A stretch of DNA of 44,526 bases. It comes from Nitrospirota bacterium (GTDB lineage: Bacteria; Nitrospirota; Thermodesulfovibrionia; SZUA-242). Of this stretch, positions 29,906 to 37,800 are shown one piece after another. A program made the translations under genes and the position numbers. The stretch covers positions 1-44,526 of the forward strand of contig QJVM01000254.1 in assembly GCA_003235715.1 (NCBI GenBank). Reading direction: 5' to 3'. Position 1 is the first letter of the stretch. Each line of letters opens with the position of its first letter. The notes under the pieces are model-generated. The model saw nothing but the letters and a program-made list of their open reading frames with translations, made no database searches and was not told where the DNA came from.

Positions 29906-30490
29906 ATGCATCGGGACCCTGTCCATCTGCAACAGAATAAGGACGAATTGATCCGGATGATCAAGGAACGCTCCTTCCGGTCGTCGTCAACCCCTACCTT
30001 CCGTCTTTCTTCGGGTGCCATGAGTTGCTTCTACTTCAATATGAAGCCCGTGACTCATTCTCCATCTGGACTGAAAATCATCGGGGACCTCTATCTGGAC
30101 AAACTCGACGAACTTGATCTGCGCCCGGACGCCATCGGCGGTTTAACCATGGGCGCTGACCCCATTGCGGCAGCTGTGGCCCGAGCCTCCTTCGATCGTC
30201 CGCCCTGGATAGAAGGCTTCGTCATTCGTAAGGAACCCAAACAGCATGGCACAGCCCAGCAACTGGAAGGCAACGTGAAACCCGGAGACCGGGTTGTTAT
30301 CGTGGATGACGTGGTCACCACCGGAGCCTCCACCATCAAGGCCATCCGGGCCGCCGAAGCCCAGAAGGTCCGGATTATAGGGGTGCTCGTGCTTCTGGAT
30401 CGGTGCGAACAGAACGGTATGCAGAATATTACGGATTGCGGGTATCCGGTTTATTCCATTCTCACGATTAGAGATTTTGTAAACGGTTAA
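29906..30490 (+). CDS. pyrE: Orotate phosphoribosyltransferase
   Basis: PyrE joins orotate to PRPP, giving OMP in pyrimidine synthesis. The 194-residue product has the OPRT layout: an N-terminal hood with FRLSSGAMSCFYFNMKPV (substrate loop), GGLTMGADPIAAAVA, the flexible catalytic loop RKEPKQHGTAQQLEG, and the PRPP signature VVIVDDVVTTGASTIKAI. The loop shape and hood fit PyrE better than other type I phosphoribosyltransferases. It has its own promoter and probably a leaderless mRNA. The haem-type membrane protein gene follows after 22 bases. Confidence 0.9.
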   Translation: MHRDPVHLQQNKDELIRMIKERSFRSSSTPTFRLSSGAMSCFYFNMKPVTHSPSGLKIIGDLYLDKLDELDLRPDAIGGLTMGADPIAAAVARASFDRPPWIEGFVIRKEPKQHGTAQQLEGNVKPGDRVVIVDDVVTTGASTIKAIRAAEAQKVRIIGVLVLLDRCEQNGMQNITDCGYPVYSILTIRDFVNG

Positions 30491-30512: not shown

Positions 30513-31226
30513 GTGACCGGCGATAAACAGATCGACCGCAACACCCTGGAAACGGCTGACGGTCAGGAGGACCGCCCCGCTTACGTGGCCTGGGAAGGTC
30601 GGGTGTATGATGTATCGGCCAGCCGGCTGTGGAAGGCTGGCAGCCACATGAGCATCCACAAGGCAGGGCAGGATTTGACGGCCCACCTTCCTCTTGCACC
30701 GCACGGCCCAGAAGTTCTGGACCGGGTGCCCTTCGTGGGGGGGTTGACCGAATCTTCCGAGGACGAAACCGACCAGCGCGAAGAGCTGAAGGAGTCGCTT
30801 TCCCAGCTGTACAAGAAATATCATCCTCATCCCATTACGATTCATTTCCCGATTGCTCTGTTTATCTTTGCCGGATTCCTTGATCTCCTGTATTTCCTCC
30901 TGGGGCGCCCGGTGTCTCTGGGGAGTGCTGTCCTTTACAGCCTGCTTTTTGCCTCGTTTACGGCGCCCCTGGCCATGGCCTCGGGGTTTCTTAGCTGGTG
31001 GCTGAACTACAATATGGCCCTGACCGCCATTTTCAGACGAAAGATAACGGGCTCTCTTCTGTTGCTGGTCATTGCGATGGTCTGTCTCGCGTTGCGGCTT
31101 CACGAGCCCATGGTCCAGGCTGAAGGGGGCCCGGCCGCCTGGGTTTACCACGGGCTTCTGCTCGCAGCATGGCCCCTCGTGGCTTTCATCGGCTACCAGG
31201 GCGGGAAGATTACGTTTTCGAGTTAA
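30513..31226 (+). CDS. Cytochrome b5-like domain fused to DUF2231 membrane domain
   Basis: A 237-residue protein starting with GTG. Residues 22-75 resemble the bacterial cytochrome b5-like/steroid-binding domain: AYVAWEGRVYDVS, then LWKAGSHMSIHKAGQDLT and APHGPEVLDRVPFVG. His45, His49 and His64 are the candidate haem ligands. After an acidic linker (about 79-95), the DUF2231 membrane part begins with HPHPITIHFPIALFIFAGF and has four helices, several with membrane-facing histidines. Such fusions suggest a small membrane-bound haem redox protein, but activity and partners are unknown. The half-ferritin gene follows 13 bases later. Confidence 0.82.
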   Translation: MTGDKQIDRNTLETADGQEDRPAYVAWEGRVYDVSASRLWKAGSHMSIHKAGQDLTAHLPLAPHGPEVLDRVPFVGGLTESSEDETDQREELKESLSQLYKKYHPHPITIHFPIALFIFAGFLDLLYFLLGRPVSLGSAVLYSLLFASFTAPLAMASGFLSWWLNYNMALTAIFRRKITGSLLLLVIAMVCLALRLHEPMVQAEGGPAAWVYHGLLLAAWPLVAFIGYQGGKITFSS

Positions 31227-31239
31227 GGGGGGAAGGACA

Positions 31240-31461
31240 ATGTGGACTGAAAAGGAACTCCGGGAAATGATCGAGATGGTGACCATTGCCATTCCCCGGG
31301 AAAAGGACGCCCACCGGTTTTATCTTCAGGCCGCAGAAAAGGCCCGGACCGAGGGGGCCCGCAAGATGCTTCTGTCCATGGCGCAGCAGGAGCAGACCCA
31401 CCAACATATGCTCAAGGACCTTCTGAAGAGCCTTCAGAACGAACTTGAGGAACTGTCCTGA
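31240..31461 (+). CDS. Half-ferritin (two-helix ferritin-like protein)
   Basis: A 73-residue protein with the ATG at 31240 preceded by GGGGGGAAGGA. It forms one helical hairpin. The putative iron ligands Glu21 (REKDAHRFY), Glu51 and His54 (QEQTHQHM) sit in an E-x29-E-x2-H arrangement, with Tyr28 seven residues after the first Glu. Encapsulated ferritins have the same spacing (Glu32, Tyr39, Glu62, His65 in the Rhodospirillum rubrum protein), while rubrerythrins have 33 residues between the glutamates. A two-helix protein must dimerise to make a ferroxidase site. No encapsulin is in the window. It is probably co-transcribed with the haem-type membrane protein upstream. Confidence 0.8.
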   Translation: MWTEKELREMIEMVTIAIPREKDAHRFYLQAAEKARTEGARKMLLSMAQQEQTHQHMLKDLLKSLQNELEELS

Positions 31462-31571
31462 AGCTTCGAGCCTCCGGTCCTGCAGAACCGTATCGGTAGC
31501 AAACAATAAAGGGACGAGCAGTCAGAAGAGCGGGCAAGGAACAAAGTTTCTATCCCCCCGTTGTGAGGCTT

Positions 31572-33143
31572 ATGGAAGCGGTATCCCGGGTTAAGCACAC
31601 CGATTTTCTCGTGATCGGCGGAGGTGCGGCCGGATTGCGCGCGGCCGTCGAACTGGCTGGGACCGGATGCAAAGTACTCGTGGTTACGAAAGACCGGCCT
31701 GTGGAGTCGAGTACAGAGTATGCCCAGGGCGGGGTGGCTGTGGCCCTGAGTGACGAGGATGAGGTGGCGATTCATTTTCGGGACACCCTTCGGGCCGGTG
31801 ACGGTCTTTGTCGTGCGGAAAGTGTCCGGACTCTGGTGGAGGAAGGCCCTGAAGAAATTGGCCGCCTGATGGAATGGGGAGCCCAGTTTGACCGGGAAGG
31901 GGTGAAACTGGCCTTCGCCCGGGAAGGGGCCCATTCCCGAAGACGTATTCTGCATGCCCGGGGGGATTCCACGGGTCGGGAGATCATGCGCACCCTGATC
32001 CGGACGGTCCGAACCCACCGCAACGTATCCCGGCTCTCCCATGCGTGTTCTGTGGACCTGGTCGTTTCTGATAAAACCTGCCGTGGGGTGCTTGTGTCTC
32101 AGGGGTCGGAGCTGGTCGTCTGCTATGCGCGCGCCATTGTTCTTGCAACCGGTGGTGCCGGACAGCTCTATTCCCGCACGACGAATCCACTGGTGGCCAC
32201 GGGAGACGGCATGGCCATGGCCTATCGGGCTGGTGCCCTGATGGAAGATATGGAGATGGTGCAGTTTCACCCCACCAGTCTCTACGTTCCGGGCGCCCCC
32301 CAGTTTCTCCTGAGCGAAGCGATGCGCGGAGAAGGGGGAATTCTCAGGAACGCACGCGGCGAACGGTTCATGACGCACTACCACGAAGATGCAGAGTTGG
32401 CCCCACGAGACGTCGTGACCCGGGCCATTGTGTCAGAGATGGTCAGGTCACGAAGCCGGAACGTTTATCTCGATATGACCCACTTATCCAGGGAGTTTCT
32501 CAAGAGAAGATTTCCCAGAATCTATGCGACGTGCCTCACCTACGACGTGGATATTGCGGACGAACCGGTTCCGGTGTCACCGGCCGCTCATTATTTCATG
32601 GGAGGTGTACACACGGATGTGGACGGTCGTACGACCGTACAGGGTCTTTTCGCGGCGGGTGAGGTGGCCTGCACCGGTGTTCACGGGGCAAACAGACTGG
32701 CTTCGAACAGTCTGCTCGAGGGCATCGTCTTTGGGGCGCGGTCCGCCCGTACCGCCGCGGCATATGGTTTGGCCAAGGAAAGGCCTCGGGGCGGTCAGAA
32801 GGTCAGGGTCATAATTGGCGAGCGGGGAGGACATGACCTCGACAAGGTCCGGAGCGAACTGCGCCGGGTGATGTGGGATCGGGTGGGAATTATCCGCTGT
32901 GCACGCTCTCTGGAGCAGGCGGAAGAAAGACTGCGGCGCTGGGACCGCCTGCGTACGTGCCAGGGAGTTTCACGAGGCGAGATAGAACTGCGAAACCTTC
33001 TTGATGTGGCGTGGATCGTTCTCGAGTCGGCAAAGCGAAGGTCGAACAGCGTGGGCGCACATTACCGATCCGACCACAAAGGGAAGGAGAAAGGCTGGAA
33101 GCGCCACATCCGTCTTCAAAGGGCACCCGAGCCGTTGTTCTGA
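31572..33143 (+). CDS. nadB: L-aspartate oxidase
   Basis: NadB oxidises L-aspartate to iminoaspartate for NAD synthesis and can use fumarate as electron acceptor under anaerobic conditions. The 523-residue flavoprotein shows FAD-binding VIGGGAAGLRAAVELA, SSTEYAQGGVAVAL, HSRRRILHARGDSTGREI, PVSPAAHYFMGGVHTD and FAAGEVACTGVHGANRLASNSLLEG. These features separate it from fumarate reductase subunits. The start may be the GTG at 31563 or the ATG at 31572; neither has an ideal ribosome site. nadA and nadC are not nearby. It ends in a region convergent with the rhomboid gene. Confidence 0.95.
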   Translation: MEAVSRVKHTDFLVIGGGAAGLRAAVELAGTGCKVLVVTKDRPVESSTEYAQGGVAVALSDEDEVAIHFRDTLRAGDGLCRAESVRTLVEEGPEEIGRLMEWGAQFDREGVKLAFAREGAHSRRRILHARGDSTGREIMRTLIRTVRTHRNVSRLSHACSVDLVVSDKTCRGVLVSQGSELVVCYARAIVLATGGAGQLYSRTTNPLVATGDGMAMAYRAGALMEDMEMVQFHPTSLYVPGAPQFLLSEAMRGEGGILRNARGERFMTHYHEDAELAPRDVVTRAIVSEMVRSRSRNVYLDMTHLSREFLKRRFPRIYATCLTYDVDIADEPVPVSPAAHYFMGGVHTDVDGRTTVQGLFAAGEVACTGVHGANRLASNSLLEGIVFGARSARTAAAYGLAKERPRGGQKVRVIIGERGGHDLDKVRSELRRVMWDRVGIIRCARSLEQAEERLRRWDRLRTCQGVSRGEIELRNLLDVAWIVLESAKRRSNSVGAHYRSDHKGKEKGWKRHIRLQRAPEPLF

Positions 33144-37359: not shown

Positions 37360-37800
37360 TCAGGGTTCGGGCTTTTCCTCTGCCCCGGTTCCGTCCGGGA
37401 CCCGTCGGGCAATCTGGTCCAAAAGGCCGTTGATAAAAGAAGCCGAGTCCAGGGTGGAAAACTCCTTGGCAATTTCCAGGGCTTCGTTGATAGCGACGGC
37501 GGTTGGAATGTCAGGCCGGAAGAGAAGTTCATAGGCCGCCAGTCGCAAGAGGCTTCGGTCGACCGCCGCCATACGCTCAAGGGCCCAGTTCGCCGCGGTC
37601 TGTCGCAGGACTTCATCGAGCCGGTCGCGGTGAATCCAAGCCCCGACCACCAGCCCCTCCGTGAATTCCCTGAGATCTTCCGGCTCCCTCTTATCCGCCC
37701 AGAATTCCTGAAAGCGGTTTGGCCCAGGCTCTCCGCCCCCTATGTCCAAACTGAAAAGCAGTTGAAGGGCGTAGCGTCTGGCCTTGCGGCGCCGGCTCAT
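37360..37800 (-). CDS. nusB: Transcription antitermination factor NusB
   Basis: NusB binds boxA RNA with NusE (S10) in rRNA antitermination. The 146-residue all-helical protein has the family start RRKARRYALQLLFSLDI, WALERMAAVDRSLLRLAAYELLF and the highly conserved TAVAINEALEIAKEFS with FINGLLDQIAR. The ATG has GGGGA upstream. It follows ribH by 22 bases, the usual order in many bacteria. Confidence 0.96.
   Translation of the reverse strand: MSRRRKARRYALQLLFSLDIGGGEPGPNRFQEFWADKREPEDLREFTEGLVVGAWIHRDRLDEVLRQTAANWALERMAAVDRSLLRLAAYELLFRPDIPTAVAINEALEIAKEFSTLDSASFINGLLDQIARRVPDGTGAEEKPEP

Follow-up and report, generated by a model that had tools for sequence, protein, structure and literature searches.

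A recurrent Nitrospirota gene pair encoding a cytochrome b5-like/DUF2231 membrane protein and a single-hairpin half-ferritin

The two genes and their products

The stretch of DNA that we analysed (the window) comprises 44,526 nucleotides from a Nitrospirota bacterium (contig QJVM01000254.1). It carries on its forward strand a gene for a cytochrome b5-like membrane protein, followed directly by a gene for a very small ferritin-like protein:

29906..30490, + strand: pyrE (orotate phosphoribosyltransferase), upstream neighbour, outside the module (TIGR00336 over cut-off)
30513..31226, + strand: cytochrome b5-like and DUF2231 membrane protein, 237 aa, GTG start (Pfam PF00173 and PF09990; model; relatives)
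31220..31239, + strand: 3' end of the first gene and intergenic gap, with a purine-rich, probable ribosome-binding site (sequence read)
31240..31461, + strand: 73-aa single-hairpin rubrerythrin-type half-ferritin (Pfam PF02915; two-helix model)
31563..33143, + strand: nadB (L-aspartate oxidase), downstream neighbour, outside the module (TIGR00551 over cut-off)

Thirteen bases (31227-31239) separate the two genes of the pair, and the purine-rich GGGGGGAAGGA precedes the ATG of the half-ferritin gene at 31240. An earlier note on this DNA had described the same arrangement (a fusion gene, a 13-base gap and a 73-residue half-ferritin), which proved exact when the coordinates and lengths were read again. 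The pyrE gene ends 22 bases before the pair. Neither pyrE nor nadB recurs in the regions compared at the other three pair loci.

The first protein has the conserved domains of cytochrome b5 (PF00173; E = 4e-5, 24.0 bits against a cut-off of 23.7) and DUF2231 (PF09990; E = 8e-10, 39.3 against 26.4 bits). The cytochrome b5-like domain occupies residues ~1-79 and the four-helix DUF2231 membrane domain residues ~100-235; the AlphaFold model (pLDDT 83, pTM 0.58) shows four long helices in addition to the b5 domain and a linker helix. The closest solved structures to the b5 domain are small archaeal b5-domain proteins (6NZX, E = 2e-26, Z = 14.6; 6VZ6, E = 1e-26, Z = 14.2). For the DUF2231 bundle we accepted no structural relative as trustworthy: apart from b5 proteins, Foldseek returned E values of 0.27 or higher, and the VIA-align rows were helical bundles of many kinds (Z of 12.7 at most). 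The open-access literature searched under the name DUF2231 yielded no function for the domain.

An alignment of 14 rows (one of them a fragment from genome G434, with the relatives at loci L018, L020 and L021 left out) identified six histidines (H45, H49, H64, H104, H106 and H111) that are kept in all 13 rows reaching these positions, as well as H213, which is kept in 8 of the 14. H45, H49 and H64 are candidates for the two axial haem ligands, H64 having the spacing of His63 in cytochrome b5, and H104, H106 and H111 form an HPHP-x4-H stretch that enters the first membrane helix. No invariant histidine was found on a second transmembrane helix in this alignment and, thus, the sequence does not support a transmembrane haem/quinol route through one subunit. 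We also identified a second b5-domain protein in the window's own genome, G000 (L010:700-1842, contig G000:C253), joined to a CopD-type membrane domain and with a b5 match of 23.3 against 23.7 bits. Across the sampled genomes of the phylum, b5 matches are frequent in ORFs of roughly 300-420 aa.

The second protein matches the Rubrerythrin family (PF02915; E = 6e-10, 40.1 bits against a gathering score of 22.8) over profile positions 1-61 of 137, which is one hairpin only, and the gene stops at 31461. Pfam detected no rubredoxin domain within the 73 aa. The predicted fold of the single chain (pLDDT 97) consists only of helices 4-34 and 38-72. The sequence has the ligand set E21-x29-E51-x2-H54 and a tyrosine at +7 (Y28), with the spacing that the earlier note had reported. 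All four residues are kept in the four complete half-ferritins of the pairs, and a contig-cut copy keeps E21 and Y28 over its remaining part. The half-ferritins of G404, G175 and G434 also exceed the PF02915 gathering score. Within NCBIfam, the best match of the half-ferritin is a stretch of MbfA (residues 97-151; E = 2.6e-7, 30.4 of 450 bits). At least three further, longer ORFs of the window genome are ferritin-like and, read by eye, consist of two hairpin-like halves (L002:1483-1959, L003:1444-2040 and L004:1354-1956) and, therefore, the half-ferritin is not the sole protein of this kind there.

Recurrence of the pair and other partners of the membrane protein

When the membrane protein was searched against 395 genomes of the phylum, 91 gave matches, nearly all of them to the b5 domain only; the full-length matches were in G000, G175 and G227. 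Outside the window, the half-ferritin found its best match (45% identity, E = 1.3e-13) next to the membrane-protein gene of G175. Searching the family of G175 (19 genomes) added G395, and a profile search of the class (230 genomes) added G404. A full-length cytochrome b5/DUF2231 gene is present in five of the 230 class genomes and is followed directly downstream, on the same strand, by a half-ferritin gene in four of the five (four genera, three families). The genes are separated by 13 (window), 14 (G175), 33 (G404) and 87 (G395) bases. The contig end truncates the G395 half-ferritin, and another contig seems to begin with the rest of it. A further, contig-cut pair was seen in G434, in which a half-ferritin gene follows the last 105 residues of a DUF2231-like protein (E = 0.007, below the cut-off) located at a contig start, so that any b5 domain would lie beyond the visible part. 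The pair spans families f1, f3 and f7 and probably also f10. The best matches to the half-ferritin profile came from G175, G404, G000, G395 and G434 (E of 5e-17 or lower, a threshold set in retrospect from the distance to the following match at 1.4e-12), and all five genomes have a DUF2231-type gene directly upstream. The earlier note had suggested surveying whether the two genes recur together, and they do, in three families or in four with the contig-cut case.

An all-against-all ORF comparison of the four pair loci (window positions 22001-44000 and 14.0, 9.0 and 8.5 kb of G175, G395 and G404, respectively) identified these two genes as the only ones shared near the pair. Two other ORF matches came up: the window ORF at 37360-37800 shares 31% with a G395 ORF that lies well away from the pair, and opposite-strand frames of the half-ferritin itself match weakly. 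The neighbours scanned around the pairs include TelA, a molybdopterin oxidoreductase, shikimate dehydrogenase and the end of a chemotaxis receptor. Relatives of the membrane protein are 36-44% identical to the window protein; those of the pair loci share 41-44% with it and 49-55% among themselves. The half-ferritins are 41-47% identical to that of the window, with 64% between G175 and G404. The pair is absent from the other two genomes available for the window's family, G001 and G002. Among 72,556 plasmid records, none matches the half-ferritin and four match the membrane protein, none of them over 80% of its length. Judged by gene order and sequence conservation, the pair is a real, recurrent two-gene unit.

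Outside the phylum, we scanned named genomes once by exact peptide words of the window protein, a procedure that reaches close relatives only and therefore under-samples the distribution. The scan recovered 11 relatives (one from Deferribacterales, nine from Campylobacterota and one listed as 'bacterium'). Ten have the b5 domain, and L021 matches from residue 83 on only. As far as the contigs reach (that of L020 ends just after the membrane-protein gene), no half-ferritin of this type lies beside any of the 11. In six of them, from Campylobacterota, the ORF runs on into an oxidoreductase to reach 827-847 aa:

L012:796-3339 (strand not given): b5/DUF2231-oxidoreductase fusion ORF (ORF reading)
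L013:1798-4314 (strand not given): b5/DUF2231-oxidoreductase fusion ORF (ORF reading)
L014:862-3405 (strand not given): b5/DUF2231-oxidoreductase fusion ORF (ORF reading)
L016:6016-8553 (strand not given): b5/DUF2231-oxidoreductase fusion ORF (ORF reading)
L017:5992-8475 (strand not given): b5/DUF2231-oxidoreductase fusion ORF (ORF reading)
L018:816-3299 (strand not given): b5/DUF2231-oxidoreductase fusion ORF (ORF reading)

The Pfam run, made on L012, identified the C-terminal fusion partner as the POR/POR_N part (PF01558 and PF01855) of a thiamine-dependent 2-oxoacid:acceptor oxidoreductase and the product of the next gene as a TPP-binding beta subunit (PF02775 and PF12367). The L015 relative is split over two ORFs, L021 consists of two overlapping ORFs and L019 stands alone. 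A gene for an Fe/Mn superoxide dismutase lies upstream in L012 (by Pfam) and in L014, L016 and L020 (by eye).

Within the class, the exception is G227 (L103:1498-2625), which has a response-regulator receiver domain fused in front of the cytochrome b5/DUF2231 protein. The fusion gene lies between a histidine kinase gene and a receiver-GAF-kinase gene, and the 3.7-kb locus contains no half-ferritin. The response regulator fused at the N-terminus in G227 and the 2-oxoacid oxidoreductase fused at the C-terminus in L012 argue that both termini of the membrane protein are cytoplasmic, an orientation with which the charges of its loops agree weakly. The variety of partners fits, and suggests, a role for the cytochrome b5/DUF2231 protein as a reusable redox anchor, and is also compatible with sensing. 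An independent pairing of b5 and ferritin-like proteins was observed at L117 (726-1607), where a gene for a 189-aa protein with a ferritin domain (PF00210) directly precedes one for a 79-aa stand-alone cytochrome b5.

Relationship of the half-ferritin to rubrerythrins and encapsulated ferritins

The earlier note had read the ligand spacing as a special link to encapsulated ferritins (EncFtn). However, the E-x29-E-x2-H motif with tyrosine at +7 occurs twice, once per hairpin, in 26 of the 28 next-best, double-hairpin loci of the half-ferritin search (L052-L079; L059 and L076 have no motif ORF), a set chosen by similarity to the query and hence favouring equal spacing. The spacing is, in these sequences, common in rubrerythrin-type proteins rather than an EncFtn hallmark and, thus, the EncFtn link is not diagnostic. 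The EncFtn-like family PF22277 gave no match listed at E of 10 or lower for the half-ferritins of the window, G175 and G404, in a scan whose HMMER filters let few matches above about 0.1 through. The window half-ferritin matched the EncB family NF058679 far under the cut-off (4.6e-5, 23.4 of 90 bits) and TIGR04535 also under it (8.8e-4, 19.2 of 125 bits), and some sequence similarity to EncFtn is real. A review gives the bacterial EncFtn signature as HxxxE-E62-x-E-H65 (HxxxEExEH) and names short FLPs without an apparent targeting peptide (PMC11202242). None of the outer residues of this signature (H, E and E) is present in the half-ferritins of the window, G175 and G404, and one is present in that of G434. 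Furthermore, the chain ends at residue 73, without the short C-terminal helix of EncFtn or the targeting peptide that most of these proteins carry.

The encapsulin family PF04454 was not found in the window genome (95.83% complete, 271 contigs), which extends to the assembled genome the earlier remark that no encapsulin gene lay nearby. A search of nine genomes, G000 and G175 among them, and another of the less complete G395 (79%) and G404 (84%) gave no match either; the control of the search was positive in 3 of 14 known genomes each time. PF19307 matched none of four genomes, and its control was likewise without a match. Given that PF04454, a family match at cut-off, the signature and the C-terminal parts are all missing, we rejected membership in EncFtn. 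The EncFtn/FLP proteins (TIGR04535 and PF22277) resemble the pair half-ferritin in the half-ferritin format, the ligand spacing and the tyrosine but differ in their shell, targeting peptide, C-terminal helix and full HxxxEExEH signature, which were not found in the latter. Of the earlier reading, what holds is that the half-ferritin comes without an encapsulin and that gene order links it to a haem-type protein of the membrane; a special link to EncFtn is not supported.

Half-ferritins were also observed in other settings. Three EncFtn-like ones (L087:2735-3013, L088:2514-2804 and L089:2545-2919) have no encapsulin read nearby, and PF04454 gave no match in genome G041. The single-hairpin protein of L087, the one of the three covered by the scan, is over the PF22277 cut-off. 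Stand-alone half-ferritins lie beside a dehydrogenase E1 gene in L081:935-1180 (by Pfam), L082:2741-2986 and L085:1734-1976 (both by eye), and others are divergent from GcvH and a dihydrolipoamide-dehydrogenase-type gene in L138:3194-3394 (by Pfam) and L139:2844-3044 (by eye). These loci may represent a second half-ferritin theme, linked to lipoate enzymes.

Among solved structures, the pair profile matched 2FZF first (2.5e-12) and the EncFtn domain 5N5E second (5.5e-8), making 2FZF the best solved sequence match of the half-ferritin, as PF02915 is its best Pfam match. Foldseek with the 73-aa hairpin placed rows of 5N5E at the top (E = 0.011 and 0.019), then 2FZF (0.12), with 7S5C and 5DA5 also present. 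The hairpin superposes on 2FZF with 0.9 Å over 61 columns. Fold comparison gave no decision between EncFtn and rubrerythrin, since the hairpin matches both. Rubrerythrin-type double-hairpin proteins (PF02915; 2FZF and 1VJX) share the E-x29-E-x2-H ligands and the tyrosine at +7 in each hairpin. Unlike them, the half-ferritin has one hairpin instead of two, no rubredoxin domain and a membrane b5 partner. A tree of 62 single hairpins (10 half-ferritins and 52 halves from 26 of the 28 loci, without L059 and L076, the contig-cut L090 copy and G434) joined the single-hairpin proteins at 98/86. The pair half-ferritins did not form one clade in this tree (2 changes, with few columns and long branches) and, therefore, we claim no origin for them.

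A possible membrane-coupled diiron enzyme

We propose, at a little short of an even chance, that the pair encodes a split, membrane-coupled enzyme of the rubrerythrin type in which a cytoplasmic b5 haem reduces an inter-chain diiron site, most likely for peroxide. The two genes, their conserved adjacency and ligand residues and a predicted single hairpin are observations; the metal and haem content, the physical contact between the proteins, the direction of the electrons and the substrate are inferred. Both genes would encode one redox unit. A four-helix bundle assembled from two half-ferritin chains could hold a diiron site, to which each chain would contribute E21, E51 and H54. The rubrerythrin-type centre would in this way be split over a homodimer or a higher oligomer. 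A b-type haem would reside in the N-terminal b5-like domain at the cytoplasmic face, with the DUF2231 bundle as its anchor; this haem could receive electrons either from the membrane, probably through quinol, or from a soluble donor. No export signal is visible by eye in the half-ferritin, which would allow the two proteins to meet on the cytoplasmic side. There, the b5 haem would pass electrons to the diiron site in place of the rubredoxin of an ordinary rubrerythrin, which would most likely serve to reduce peroxide, or possibly O2, to water. The electron donor on which rubrerythrins depend is usually rubredoxin, and cytochrome b5 feeds electrons to diiron desaturases. The ligands alone cannot tell a peroxidase from a ferroxidase; in our judgement, peroxide reduction is the likelier of the two because the partner is an electron carrier. 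Against the proposal, the membrane protein also occurs without the half-ferritin (in the 11 loci outside the phylum, as far as their contigs reach, and in the G227 locus), G001 and G002 lack the pair, and no histidine of a second membrane helix is invariant.

Related arrangements have been described. Ferriperoxin from Hydrogenobacter thermophilus is reported to be a rubrerythrin-like peroxidase without a rubredoxin domain, driven by NADPH and ferredoxin:NADPH reductase (PMC3317640). It is set apart by description, with electrons that come from NADPH and no membrane haem partner mentioned in its abstract (PMC3317640). In Thermococci, according to another report, the gene for a cytochrome-b-like DUF4405 protein has two ferritin-like genes and one for an aldehyde oxidoreductase in its vicinity, and in T. 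barophilus DUF4405 is fused to a b5 domain, with iron-dependent electron transfer proposed (PMC5898192). The likeness extends to the membrane electron carrier, the cytochrome b5-like domain and the ferritin-like genes, but these are archaea, the membrane domain is DUF4405 with two haem histidines rather than DUF2231, and section 3.6 of that report neither gives the size of the ferritin-like proteins nor describes this two-gene unit (PMC5898192). The idea being already in print reduces the novelty of our proposal yet supports its direction. In the open-access literature that we searched, we found no description of a cytochrome b5/DUF2231 and half-ferritin pair.

Iron handling is a rather unlikely alternative, in which the half-ferritin would act as a ferroxidase, or buffer iron on a small scale, while an iron-releasing reductase would be provided by the b5/DUF2231 protein. 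Bacterioferritin-associated ferredoxin, which releases iron from bacterioferritin, provides the model, and electron transfer from haem to ferritin is known for bacterioferritin. In addition, L117 places a ferritin-domain gene beside a small cytochrome b5 gene, and the ligand set with its tyrosine at +7 equals the EncFtn ferroxidase centre (E32, Y39, E62 and H65) as described for it (PMC5012862). However, a storage cavity is not evident in a 73-aa hairpin that lacks the C-terminal helix, the genomes searched yielded no PF04454 shell, and there is no iron transporter among the scanned neighbours of the pairs (L080:7912-9012 had no family match, and the others were judged by eye). It is more improbable still that the pair is a split, MbfA-like iron exporter, with the half-ferritin oxidising or sensing Fe(II) and DUF2231 moving iron across the membrane. 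MbfA is likewise a rubrerythrin-like protein at the membrane, as a single chain fused to an exporter domain, and a stretch of it is the best NCBIfam match of the half-ferritin. Yet DUF2231 is not known to be this exporter domain, and MbfA lacks the b5 domain, which export would not need. The fusion of the membrane protein to a 2-oxoacid oxidoreductase also points to electrons, not ions. The literature describes MbfA as a rubrerythrin-like ferritin bound to the membrane (PMC3413700) and reports an iron-export defect in its mutant (PMC4902296).

We give a similarly low probability to redox or oxygen sensing, in which the b5/DUF2231 protein would sense the state of haem, quinone or oxygen and the half-ferritin would be its signalling or adaptor partner. 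The G227 receiver-domain fusion, located between kinase genes, and the chemotaxis-receptor gene whose end lies convergently beside the G404 half-ferritin are consistent with this role. However, the receiver fusion occurs in only one of the five class members, no regulator was seen by eye next to the pairs of the window, G175 and G395, and the diiron ligands, which an adaptor would not need, are fully kept. Finally, the genes could be chance or hitch-hiking neighbours with no joint function, as small genes may ride along and both are absent from G001 and G002. Conservation of the same order in four of five cases, at 41-55% membrane-protein identity and in otherwise different surroundings, makes such a pairing unlikely, and we regard it as very improbable.

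The split, membrane-coupled enzyme that we prefer could be one use of a general-purpose redox anchor that faces the cytoplasm and links soluble oxidoreductases to the membrane. With the half-ferritin, the anchor would form a quinol-driven, membrane-tethered, split-rubrerythrin diiron peroxidase; with the oxidoreductase of Campylobacterota, it would let the oxidation of 2-oxoacids supply the membrane directly, without ferredoxin. We consider this broader scheme possible, though doubtful, and a membrane-anchored 2-oxoacid oxidoreductase would be unusual. The two-gene unit is further evidence that a genome need not encode an encapsulin to carry a half-ferritin. If the proposal is true, the pairing with a membrane b5 protein would wire the diiron defence against peroxide in a different way, right at the membrane, and the uncharacterised DUF2231 would gain a testable role.
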